Of a DNA stretch of 44,677 nucleotides, positions 4,880-8,003 are shown piece after piece. The position numbers were made by a program, and so were the translations under genes. Source of the stretch: Lachnospiraceae bacterium (GTDB lineage: Bacteria; Bacillota; Clostridia; Lachnospirales; Lachnospiraceae). Location: assembly GCA_900199595.1 (NCBI GenBank), contig FZRB01000022.1, positions 20,851 through 65,527 on the forward strand, given 5' to 3'. How positions within the stretch are numbered: the first letter of the stretch is position 1; every line of letters starts with the position of its first letter. Below the pieces are notes generated by a model. The model was not told the DNA's origin. It saw only the letters and a list, made by a program, of their open reading frames with translations, and ran no database searches.

Positions 4880-6040
4880 TTAGTTTTGTCCGCCGGCTTT
4901 GTAGTTATATACCGGCTTTATAATCTTATCGATTCTTACTGTGTCTTTTATAACTGCTGCAATGTCGTCTATACCTCTATAGGCAAATGGGCTTTCATCC
5001 AGTGTATTTTTATTGATACATATGGAATATATACCATCCATTGCTTTCTTGAAGTCAGAAACTGTATGGTGTTCAGCAACCTCAGAACGCTTATAGATTC
5101 TGCCAGCTCCATGGGGTGCCGAATAGTTCCAGTCAGGATTACCCAGTCCGGTTCCGAGAATGATTCCGTCACGCATGTTGATTGGGATGATCACTCTTTC
5201 CCCCTCTCTAGCGCTGATAGCTCCTTTTCTGAGAATAGGCTTATCCTCGTCTGAAGTCCTGTCATCAACCCCTGTGAAATCCACATAGTTATGGATGCAG
5301 GTAAATGTATCCTCTATCTTCCACTTCATTCCATTTACTATTGAATCGATGATTGCATCTCTGTTGAGACGAGCAAACTCCTGGATAATCTTTATATCAT
5401 AAAGATAATTCTCCATTAGTTCACCGGAAAGGCAGGTCATCTCGTAAGAAGCATAGCCCTGCTTTTTCATTTGCATTTCCTTCTGGCCTGTTCTGAGATA
5501 AAAGTCTACAACTTCCATTCCCAGATGTCTGCTTCCGGAATGTACAACAAGATATATATTTCCTTCCTCATCCTTATCTACTTCAATAAAATGGTTTCCG
5601 CCACCAAGAGTACCGACACTTCTGTTTGCTTTTCTTGGATTGATTCCCTTATAGCATCTGAGCAAAGAGAGGTCTATCCTGTCAGCATATTTATGTTCCT
5701 TCTCGCGTATCCTCGGGCCGACAGGTACATTTTCCCTGATAACAGAGTCAAGCTGCTGGAACTGAAGTCCCTTGGTCTTAACCTTAGCCATAGTCATTCC
5801 ACAACCGATATCAACACCTACCAGACTTGGCAGGATGCAGTCTCCCACTGTCATTGTAAGTCCTATAGTTCCCACCTTGCCGGGATGAACATCCGGCATA
5901 ACCCGAACGCTGCTACCCTCAGCACTTGGATGGTTACAGATCATCTGTAACTGTTTTCTTGCATAATCCTCAAGAGCGTAAAGTTCATTCTCTACTGTAT
6001 AAACTAAAGCATTTGTATATTTGCCATATATTGTAATCAT
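4880..6040 (-). CDS. rtcB: RtcB family RNA ligase (3'-phosphate/2',3'-cyclic phosphate to 5'-OH)
   Basis: 386 residues, near full length for RtcB (about 400). Characteristic motifs in order: MPDVHPGKVG (48-57), metal-binding GVDIGCGM (75-82, Asp77/Cys80), GTLGGGNHFIE (His150), VHSGSRHLG (167-174), CIHNYV (His250), and SAPHGAGR with His310 at the place of the guanylylated histidine. Uses GTP and Mn2+ to join RNA ends with a 3'-phosphate or 2',3'-cyclic phosphate to 5'-OH ends, as in tRNA or rRNA repair. SD AAGGA 8-9 nt before ATG. No archease, RtcA, RtcR or PrfH gene is visible nearby; the gene follows a 67-codon Cys-rich ORF by 21 nt and an apparent attenuated leader. Confidence 0.95.
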   Translation of the reverse strand: MITIYGKYTNALVYTVENELYALEDYARKQLQMICNHPSAEGSSVRVMPDVHPGKVGTIGLTMTVGDCILPSLVGVDIGCGMTMAKVKTKGLQFQQLDSVIRENVPVGPRIREKEHKYADRIDLSLLRCYKGINPRKANRSVGTLGGGNHFIEVDKDEEGNIYLVVHSGSRHLGMEVVDFYLRTGQKEMQMKKQGYASYEMTCLSGELMENYLYDIKIIQEFARLNRDAIIDSIVNGMKWKIEDTFTCIHNYVDFTGVDDRTSDEDKPILRKGAISAREGERVIIPINMRDGIILGTGLGNPDWNYSAPHGAGRIYKRSEVAEHHTVSDFKKAMDGIYSICINKNTLDESPFAYRGIDDIAAVIKDTVRIDKIIKPVYNYKAGGQN

Positions 6041-6061: not shown

Positions 6062-6265
6062 CTAAAACTTATCCTTTTTCCATTGATCGTGCCTGTCCTT
6101 ATCTTTCTGTCTCTTATCCCTCACAGATTCCTTCTTCTGATTATTCTTACGAGGTCTGTACTTCGGACAATTCTTGCATTTCTTCAAATCAACTTTTACA
6201 AATCCCTTTTTGCAATCTGCATCCTTACAGACGTAATAGATGCAGGGTTCTAATCTATCTCTCAT
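6062..6265 (-). CDS. Small basic Cys-rich protein upstream of rtcB
   Basis: 67 residues. N-terminal half has five cysteines (C8, C13, C18, then C30-x2-C33), which could bind zinc or an Fe-S centre; the C-terminal half is very rich in Lys/Arg and likely flexible, suited to RNA contact. It has a clear SD (AAGGAG) and sits 21 nt upstream of rtcB in the same direction, so the pair probably forms one operon. I do not recognise the family. A role as an accessory or RNA-binding partner of RtcB is inference from context and composition only. Confidence 0.7.
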   Translation of the reverse strand: MRDRLEPCIYYVCKDADCKKGFVKVDLKKCKNCPKYRPRKNNQKKESVRDKRQKDKDRHDQWKKDKF

Positions 6266-6287
6266 TTTAATCTCCTTATTTTTTGCA

Positions 6288-6337
6288 ACAGAAAAACACC
6301 CCTGTCATCACAATTACTGTGATGACAAAAGAGGTGT
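6288..6337 (-). terminator. Strong rho-independent terminator between sORF leader and rtcB operon
   Basis: RNA of the minus strand pairs ACACCTC with GGGGTGT, then after a 3-nt bulge TGTCATCAC with GTGATGACA: 16 bp around a 7-nt loop, directly followed by TTTTT. It ends about 10 nt before the SD of the 67-codon gene, leaving no room for another promoter. It therefore looks like an attenuator for the rtcB operon as well as the end of the short upstream transcript. Confidence 0.85.
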
Positions 6338-6377
6338 CAGTTATCCTAAATATATATCAAAAAATAAGAGTACTCTT

Positions 6378-6455
6378 CTATTTACTCCACAGACTCCTTA
6401 GGACAACTACTGCCTCTATGTTACGTATTGAATTGTTTAATCTAGTACTTCGCAT
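6378..6455 (-). CDS. 25-residue small ORF (possible leader peptide or small protein)
   Basis: ATG at 6455 follows a full AAAGGAGG Shine-Dalgarno with 5-6 nt spacing; TAG at 6378-6380. The peptide begins MRSTRLNNSI and ends VLRSLWSK: a basic polar N-terminus, a short hydrophobic AVVVL stretch, and a Trp near the C-terminus. It is preceded by a near-consensus promoter and a hairpin-rich 5' UTR, and followed after about 40 nt by a strong terminator. A second, weaker palindrome (AAGAGTACTCTT then T6) lies right after the stop. No known family recognised. It could be a leader peptide controlling rtcB readthrough, or a stand-alone small protein. Confidence 0.65.
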   Translation of the reverse strand: MRSTRLNNSIRNIEAVVVLRSLWSK

Positions 6456-6650
6456 ATTGTCCTCCTTTCGTACCAATCCTTCGCTTCACGAAGTCTTGCA
6501 TTCGCTTCGCGACTGCTCCGCGCTTCACGCGGGTATCCTTCGAACTTCGTTCTCAGGATGCTCGCCTCTGCATAGCAGAGCCTAGCACTGGTTCGTCCTG
6601 GGTTAATAGTTACTGAAGCCTTATGCTTCGGGAGATTCGTGCTTTCTCCA
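6456..6650 (-). ncRNA. Hairpin-rich structured leader RNA
   Basis: About 195 nt between the predicted start of transcription and the small ORF, clearly more GC-rich than its surroundings. Six separate hairpins can be drawn: 6615-6629, 6566-6580, 6535-6559, 6518-6532, 6502-6512 and 6479-6493. The last four have GAA apical triloops on the RNA strand closed by C-G or U-G (for example TCGC-GAA-GCGA and CCGCG-TGAAG-CGCGG). I cannot match it to a known riboswitch or to a T-box leader. It may be a regulatory RNA, or a dispersed repeat element. Confidence 0.55.
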
Positions 6651-6657
6651 AGTTCGT

Positions 6658-6686
6658 AGTATATATAGGTGTTTTTAAAATGTCAA
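6658..6686 (-). promoter_or_regulatory. Near-consensus sigma-70/sigma-A promoter of the sORF/rtcB leader
   Basis: TTGACA (6681-6686) and TATACT (6658-6663) on the minus strand with an exact 17-nt spacer. Expected start of transcription near 6650. This is one of the best promoter matches in the window and lies just downstream of the DUF4143 ATPase gene. Confidence 0.8.
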
Positions 6687-6707
6687 TCAGAACTTGTTTT
6701 TTTATTC

Positions 6708-8003
6708 TTAAATGCAGAAAGATGCATATAGCGGTACTGACTTTATATTGTTTGCCATTCCAAAATTACTCTCCGATATACGGATCACATACTCAGGCTT
6801 ATACTTTTCCACATAATTGTTTAAACTGGTCGACTTCTTATGACGGCCCGATTTAATCTCAATAGGAATTACCTTTTCATCTATAATTGTAATTATATCT
6901 ATTTCCATATTAACAGCTGGCTTGAAATAATATAAGTATTTACCATTTGCAATCAACTGCTCAATTACATAGTTTTCAATAACCGCTCCCTTATATATGT
7001 TGTGATTATCCGGAAGCAGATCATGTGAATTAATGCCACATACTCGAGATAATAACCCTACATCAGAAAGATATATCTTAAAACTATCTGTATTCTCATA
7101 TGCTTTTATAGGTGATTCCGGTGAATCGAGTTTATTGATCTTATATATCATTTGTGATGCTGCAAGCCAATCAATAGGGCCATAATAATCTCTTTTTATT
7201 GCCGTTCCCTTTATTTCATTATATTTGAACTTTGGATTTTCCTTTGCAAGCTGTCTCGGAATTGAGTCATACACTGCAGTTATCTTGGCCGTCTCGGTAA
7301 CATTTGTCACATACTTAGACATATCTGCAAGATATGCAAGTCTTAGGAAGTCCAGTAATTCTCTGTTAAATGTCAAAACACTCTTTCCGTTTTCAAGGTA
7401 GCTCATAATCACCTGTGGCATACCACCTGTTATCAGATAATCGTGATAAAGAGCAAGCGCTTTATTATGTATCGCCTCCGGAAACTGGGACATCTTACTG
7501 TATGCTTCCTTTATTCCATCTCTTAAGATATCTTCTCCCGATGCAAGAAGGAATTCTTCAAAGTCCATAGGATACATATTCTTTATATATACCTTTCCTA
7601 CCGGAAATGAGCTTTCAAATCTTTTTACTTTGATACCTAGCAGGCTACCCGCGCAAATGATACGATAATTCTCTTCTGCTTCGCAGAAATATTTAAGTGA
7701 TGTGATGGCTCTCTCGCTTTGCTGGATCTCATCAATTACAATAGCGGTATTATAATCAATATTTCTTCCAAAAAGAATGCTGAGCTTTTTCAATATATCC
7801 TCCGGAGTCAGATTTCCATCAAATATTGAGATTATATCTTTTCTCTCCTCTAGATTGATATATATATAATCCTTATATGTATCCTCACAGAACTGTTTTA
7901 TCAGCCAGGTTTTTCCCACCTGTCTGGCACCAATAACAAGAAGTGGTTCCTGAACCTTATCCTCTTCCCATTTTTTTAGCACTTCATAGAATTTTCTATA
8001 CAT
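6708..8003 (-). CDS. AAA ATPase with C-terminal DUF4143 (PD-(D/E)xK-like) domain
   Basis: 431 residues. N-terminal P-loop domain with Walker A GARQVGKT (about 24-32) and Walker B IVIDEIQ; C-terminal DUF4143 with DVGLL, a GAVIENYVIEQL helix, and the nuclease-like core EIDII...VIPIEIKSG. These stand-alone ATPases are frequent in gut anaerobes; their function is not established. SD CGGAGGA 6 nt before ATG. No partner gene is evident. It is separated from the YcaQ-like gene by a terminator. Confidence 0.9.
   Translation of the reverse strand: MYRKFYEVLKKWEEDKVQEPLLVIGARQVGKTWLIKQFCEDTYKDYIYINLEERKDIISIFDGNLTPEDILKKLSILFGRNIDYNTAIVIDEIQQSERAITSLKYFCEAEENYRIICAGSLLGIKVKRFESSFPVGKVYIKNMYPMDFEEFLLASGEDILRDGIKEAYSKMSQFPEAIHNKALALYHDYLITGGMPQVIMSYLENGKSVLTFNRELLDFLRLAYLADMSKYVTNVTETAKITAVYDSIPRQLAKENPKFKYNEIKGTAIKRDYYGPIDWLAASQMIYKINKLDSPESPIKAYENTDSFKIYLSDVGLLSRVCGINSHDLLPDNHNIYKGAVIENYVIEQLIANGKYLYYFKPAVNMEIDIITIIDEKVIPIEIKSGRHKKSTSLNNYVEKYKPEYVIRISESNFGMANNIKSVPLYASFCI

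Follow-up and report, generated by a model that had tools for sequence, protein, structure and literature searches.

The question raised by this locus is what controls rtcB, the RNA ligase gene that follows a highly structured mRNA leader on the minus strand of the analysed DNA. The window is the whole 44,677-nt stretch of Lachnospiraceae DNA that was analysed. The original prediction placed a TTGACA-17-TATACT promoter, a leader with six hairpins (four of them capped by GAA triloops), a 25-codon ORF with a Shine-Dalgarno (SD) sequence and a terminator upstream of the rtcB operon. It suggested that rtcB is transcribed by readthrough of this terminator under control of a structured RNA and/or a leader peptide, with a mobile or single-stranded-DNA element as a second option. 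The promoter, hairpins, ORF and terminator are all present on the minus strand, with descending coordinates:

6658..6686, minus strand: promoter TTGACA-17-TATACT, sigma-70-like, 11 of 12 matches; similar boxes at a comparable place in most of the 37 leaders compared (by eye)
6631..6649, minus strand: hairpin P1 (GGAGA, loop AAGCACGAA, UCUCC); two-sided changes in 5/5 pairs of a 17-sequence alignment
6615..6629, minus strand: optional hairpin P2; two-sided changes in 4/5 pairs of the 17-sequence alignment
6600..6613, minus strand: conserved motif GUAAC-n3-UAACCC, whose AACCC is able to extend the SD-sequestering helix
6472..6591, minus strand: 120-nt multi-hairpin insert with four GAA triloops and ACGAA at both ends; relatives join the flanks directly
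6461..6468, minus strand: SD sequence AAAGGAGG of the leader ORF
6456..6463, minus strand: strand A (AGGACAAU), which can pair with strand B and hide the SD sequence (swap test, 14 representatives)
6378..6455, minus strand: leader ORF of 25 codons, MRSTRLNNSIRNIEAVVVLRSLWSK; homologous ORFs in relatives
6400..6416, minus strand: strand B (GAGGCAGUAGUUGUCCU), 5' half of the antiterminator, inside the ORF (codons 14-19 in the window); B:C duplex, swap test
6331..6347, minus strand: strand C (AGGAUAACUGACACCUC), 3' half of the antiterminator, overlapping the 5' arm of the terminator; B:C duplex, swap test
6292..6337, minus strand: intrinsic terminator with a U-run; the stretch 6350-6270 folds with z -4.35
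6062..6265, minus strand: 67-aa Cys/Lys-rich protein, first gene of the operon; similar gene starts in relatives (by eye)
4880..6040, minus strand: rtcB, RNA ligase, 386 aa (PF01139, E 7e-57)

The predicted promoter (6686-6658), the ORF (6455-6378) with its SD sequence at 6468-6461, and the terminator (6337-6292) were thus recovered. Shuffled sequences yield 1.5 sites of the promoter's score by chance, so this score alone is no evidence. No second promoter-like site was found within 6200-6800. An AAA_14/DUF4143 ATPase gene (6708-8003) is located just 5' of the promoter on the same strand. The RNA between 6660 and 6370 folds with -87.1 kcal/mol (z -3.19), and none of 200 shuffles was equally good. 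The predicted fold contains P1, P2 and five hairpins in the insert; the hairpin count is slightly higher than predicted, and four GAA triloops, each in one of these five hairpins, are indeed present.

All four GAA-capped hairpins lie inside 6591-6472, downstream of the 5' hairpins and ahead of the SD sequence. A BLASTN search of 61 genus genomes gave matches to the leader or the insert in 23, and in several relatives the bases equivalent to 6592 and 6468 are directly joined. The insert was seen in none of the other 36 leaders compared; the ACGAA on both of its sides is a possible target duplication. Partial copies with E below 1e-3 are found at nine other places in six genomes of the genus, and these are not rtcB leaders. 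Among the four copies read, two (L024, L026) comprise several hairpins whose loops are similar and whose arms differ in part, and two (L032, L033) match one hairpin only. We take the insert to resemble palindromic repeat elements. It parts the 5' hairpins from the SD sequence and leaves strands A, B and C and the terminator unbroken. The structure in the window is two stacked things, a conserved rtcB leader and a stray inserted DNA element, and the GAA hairpins were rejected as a regulator since they are part of the insert. A mobile or single-stranded-DNA element unrelated to rtcB is therefore the favoured reading for 6591-6472 only, the piece that is missing from other leaders and has partial copies elsewhere. 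As an account of the whole structure it is highly improbable and, for the leader, refuted by the conservation of the remaining sequence at rtcB across genera. The window leader had one match at E 0.3 and otherwise none in phage and plasmid collections, and an insert-free leader had no match in the phage collection. Short BLASTN matches were also observed in other genera (five, L042-L046), as were ten weak ones in the window's own genome.

Homologues of the leader were found in relatives, as the original prediction had proposed to check. A covariance model built from 17 leaders (R1) matched 25 of the 61 genus genomes. Among 397 genomes of the family it matched seven, of which five are real, including the window's own, and two (L077, L078) are not. 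A DNA pattern search over 84,980 species, each represented by a single genome, returned 25 stretches; the 13 inspected comprise eight leaders and five ordinary gene starts from other lineages, and the remaining 12 were taken as genus loci already found. The second model (R2), built from 33 leaders and not containing strand C, matched 23 of 392 genomes of the order, with ten real leaders including the window's own (all from the same family) and 13 matches that are not leaders. In 371 genomes of the class it matched 11, with no leader except the window's own. The large searches were run under strict filters, and the leader counts are therefore lower bounds. Besides L077 and L078, the matches judged not to be leaders, either by eye or from a long ORF behind the SD sequence, are L111, L113, L115, L119 and L132; L178, L180, L183-L185, L189 and L196-L199; L186-L188, L200, L201, L203 and L205-L208; and L190, L191, L193, L194, L202 and L204. 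Judged by its sequence homologues, the leader is conserved within one family of Clostridia, across genera.

The rtcB gene is located downstream of 42 of the 45 tabulated leaders, a set that includes close relatives and is not independent; the first aligned base of rtcB lies 140-916 nt after the leader ATG. Three of these leaders (L091, L093, L094) were first found via rtcB itself, and without them the linkage is 39/42; a 46th leader, L166, was likewise found via rtcB. The 67-aa protein has no Pfam or NCBIfam match; in several members of the genus its gene was seen, by eye, to separate the leader from rtcB. Second leader copies precede other genes. One in G335 (L080) is followed by a MoxR-type AAA ATPase and a DUF2201 protein, one in G662 (L195) by an ASCH-domain protein gene, and one in G037 (L072) by a disrupted remnant of the gene for the 67-aa protein (by eye). 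Proteins looking like Cas1 and Cas2 (by eye) were observed near L080/L164 in G335. At L195 a C-like strand adjoins the SD sequence of the ASCH gene and no terminator was seen; this copy may act on translation. Among 200 sampled genomes of the family there are 22 short-RtcB places, of which only seven have the leader (L101 not counted). Two close rtcB relatives (L082, L083) keep the terminator without the leader and have another gene upstream.

The conserved switch is composed of the SD sequence, the strand within the ORF and the strand before the terminator. B:C duplexes of -17 to -33 kcal/mol can be formed in 37/37 leaders, with a mean z of -4.3 (range -6.7 to -2.3) against 300 shuffles of B. 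When B and C were swapped between 14 distant lineages, cognate pairs averaged -23.5 kcal/mol and swapped pairs -14.6 kcal/mol, a difference for which none of 20,000 permutations was as low; the cognate strand ranks first in 9/14 lineages, and the values for all 37 leaders are -23.9 and -17.5. Six leaders from R2, the model without C, have B:C energies of -21.3 to -29.5 kcal/mol, two pairs among them being close relatives, and extension of the test to 18 lineages gave -24.0 vs -15.6. The terminators were chosen by eye in 18 of the 37 leaders and in the six later ones. For A:B, the swap in 14 lineages gave -14.9 vs -13.1 (p=3.5e-4), and the SD helix is nearly invariant in the genus alignment. 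The AACCC extension of this helix, tested alone, gave p=0.005 in 14 representatives and p=0.03 in 36 leaders. The swap tests reveal a mutually exclusive antiterminator and terminator that are kept by B/C covariation. Readthrough control of rtcB by the leader, as originally proposed, is supported by homologues, stem covariation and synteny, with the GAA hairpins falling outside the conserved regulator.

The architecture of a leader-peptide attenuator, a short ORF with an SD sequence between promoter and terminator, is present, and we consider it probable that the leader is a ribosome-mediated transcription attenuator for rtcB. Transcription from the promoter would give a leader RNA with the short ORF and the terminator before the rtcB operon. 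Two partners would be open to strand B: the SD region (A) upstream of it and, further downstream, C, which forms the terminator's 5' side. During smooth translation of the leader, ribosomes would cover B, C would fold into the terminator, and rtcB would be off. A ribosome stalled between the start codon and approximately codon 10 would block A and leave B free; the B:C duplex would then form, and RNA polymerase would read into rtcB. The untranslated leader could be off, as in trp, or on; either way, efficient translation would mean off and stalling would mean on.

Folding of 43 leaders bears on this proposal. When the stretch under a stalled ribosome is left out and the RNA is cut off at the terminator's 5' arm, this arm pairs with B in 43/43 predicted folds, consistent with antitermination if a ribosome is held up early in the ORF during synthesis of the terminator. 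Once the RNA extends to the full terminator, the partner of the arm is B in 21/43 and the terminator in 21/43. The complete leader without a ribosome adopts the terminator fold in 27/43, and SD:B pairing is predicted in 24/43 complete and 10/43 nascent folds. These energies leave the default state unsettled, so that a part for A:B and for stalling as in trp would depend on the order in which the RNA folds.

The proposed attenuator leaves the conserved P1 loop and the GUAAC motif without a role. The 5' domain (P1 loop GCACGA and GUAAC motif) could instead be the real sensor, of a metabolite or a protein, with the ORF as part of the expression platform; P1 covaries in 5/5 pairs, and GCACG of its loop is invariant in the 17-sequence alignment. 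We regard this as unlikely, given that four insert-free loci had no Rfam match up to E=1, that L091 and L094 lack the motif yet keep the ORF, B and C, that L076, L079 and L080 lack a GCACGA loop of the standard form, and that in the window the 120-nt insert parts the domain from the switch. Hairpin P2 is absent in L030, L031 and L040. A search of window positions 6200-6760 against Rfam 15 up to E=10 gave two matches only, to a microRNA (E 1.5) and a snoRNA family (E 3.8), with no credible match of the leader to riboswitch or T-box families; at gathering thresholds the window contains only rRNA and tRNA at its end. Resemblance of the GUAAC motif to the 16S rRNA around the decoding site and to the tRNA-Asn anticodon arm was considered and dropped, as the middle bases vary.

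The leader ORF carries a coding bias. Of 37 leaders, 34 have an ORF of 22-30 codons, two have one of 14 codons and a single leader has one of 58. Within codons 2-13, the 18 distant leaders together contain 42 Asn (null 21.7), 33 Thr (16.7) and 12 Lys (28.1) codons. Asn and Thr are about twofold over-represented, and none of 2000 shuffles was as high for either. Four held-out leaders, found after the Asn idea arose and counted among the 18, have seven Asn codons vs 4.9, which is not significant, and ten Thr codons vs 3.8; two leaders, L134 and L173, lack Asn throughout codons 2-13. Sixteen of the 18 distant leaders, on part of which the pattern was noticed, carry the motif N-x-[I/T] (null 3.9; 0/1000 shuffles as high), which is present in 41/45 overall. 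It was seen by eye in five of seven distinct later-found leaders (L166, L177, L181, L192 and L195, not L173 or L174). In 11 of the 16 motif-bearing distant leaders, 15-23 nt separate the motif's Asn from the downstream start of B:C (range 9-31), and this Asn would be approximately the last place where a stalled ribosome leaves B free. These codons suggest a residue- or codon-specific signal. Codons for His, Tyr and Asp (queuosine tRNAs) were considered as the signal and are not enriched.

The 25-aa peptide might alternatively be a functional small protein. The ORF is kept across genera, and the 14 representatives have 35 AAY triplets in frame against a single one in frame +1, although frame +2 has 25. 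We find this very improbable in view of L114 and L117, where a stop at codon 15 precedes B, and of L134, which is frameshifted relative to L112; strand B is still kept as RNA in all three. The same stops and frameshift reject the C-terminal peptide as the signal.

The conserved architecture, the B/C covariation, the rtcB linkage and the biased codons are directly supported. From them we infer control by the ribosome, the direction of the response and a signal of translation stress, in which tRNA-Asn or tRNA-Thr might be lost by cleavage. It is possible, if rather doubtful, that the leader is a tRNA-integrity sensor: cutting of tRNA-Asn or tRNA-Thr by a toxin or an anti-phage nuclease would stall ribosomes at the Asn/Thr codons of the leader, the terminator would be bypassed, and the ligase that repairs the cut tRNA would be made. 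A precedent for stalling made by a nuclease is the PARIS effector AriB, a defence tRNA nuclease studied in E. coli that is reported to cut tRNA-Lys, tRNA-Thr and, less, tRNA-Asn (PMC12409363). The toeprints in that study place stalled ribosomes at AAA and, more mildly, at ACA codons, with no clear stall at Asn codons (PMC12409363); Lys codons are depleted in the rtcB leaders.

The same attenuator could respond to general translation arrest, caused by an antibiotic, a damaged ribosome or an arresting nascent peptide, with tRNA identity irrelevant; we hold this reading tentatively. The prfH gene, reported as the partner of rtcB in protection of E. coli from colicin E3 (PMC9223846), is found behind the leader-bearing rtcB, beside or near it, in G172, G242 and G148 and probably also in G175 (a 66-aa fragment) and G021 (by eye). 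Leader-ORF attenuators of antibiotic-resistance genes are known, e.g. that of HflXr (PMC6310831); the held-out Asn count is not significant, and N-x-[I/T] could be a peptide motif. However, the Asn/Thr excess and Lys depletion over 18 lineages argue that codon or residue identity matters, and the leader-bearing rtcB genes of L126, L134, G211, G093 and G179 showed no prfH behind them. An RtcB-PrfH operon in the window's genome was rejected: of its two prfH matches neither reaches the curated cut-off, and both come from other contigs.

The proposed attenuator shares with those of the trp/his type a promoter, a short ORF, a terminator before the structural gene and biased codons before the switch, and probably also the set of exclusive A:B, B:C and C:D pairings. 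It differs from them in its target, an RNA-repair ligase and not an amino-acid pathway, in the SD sequence itself lying within A, in having Asn and Thr and not one end-product amino acid, and in the conserved 5' hairpin domain. In leader-ORF attenuators of antibiotic-resistance genes, ribosome stalling on a short ORF reportedly gives antitermination. The rtcB leader is likened to such attenuators in its proposed stalling, by description and not by sequence; the genes differ, and possibly the signal. The published control of rtcB that was found is by RtcR, according to Hughes et al. 2020 (PMC7790460) a protein that senses tRNA fragments and induces rtcBA on broken tRNAs. Both systems would induce rtcB; RtcR as described there (PMC7790460) is a protein sensor, whereas the leader promoter is sigma-70-like. 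No RtcR match was found in the window's genome, and E. coli, among the control genomes, did match.

Titles and the openings of abstracts, from a search with most subscription journals outside its reach, contained no report of an rtcB attenuator, leader peptide or antitermination. Neither "leader" nor "attenuat" occurs in the text of an article from 2006 about rtcB and prfH as a gene pair (PMC1586002). The rtcB leader, a probable attenuator, is real, conserved, and not found described in the literature searched.

RtcB induction in bacteria without RtcR appears to be an open question, and the leader suggests that cells make RtcB when the protein-making machinery stalls. If tRNA integrity is what the leader senses, repair would be switched on when its own substrate stops functioning, with no protein sensor. 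The MoxR ATPase/DUF2201 unit and the ASCH protein are further candidate members of the response. As a conserved mRNA leader, it is a simple reporter of when RNA repair is called on, and could be used to test whether the trigger is damaged tRNA or a damaged ribosome.
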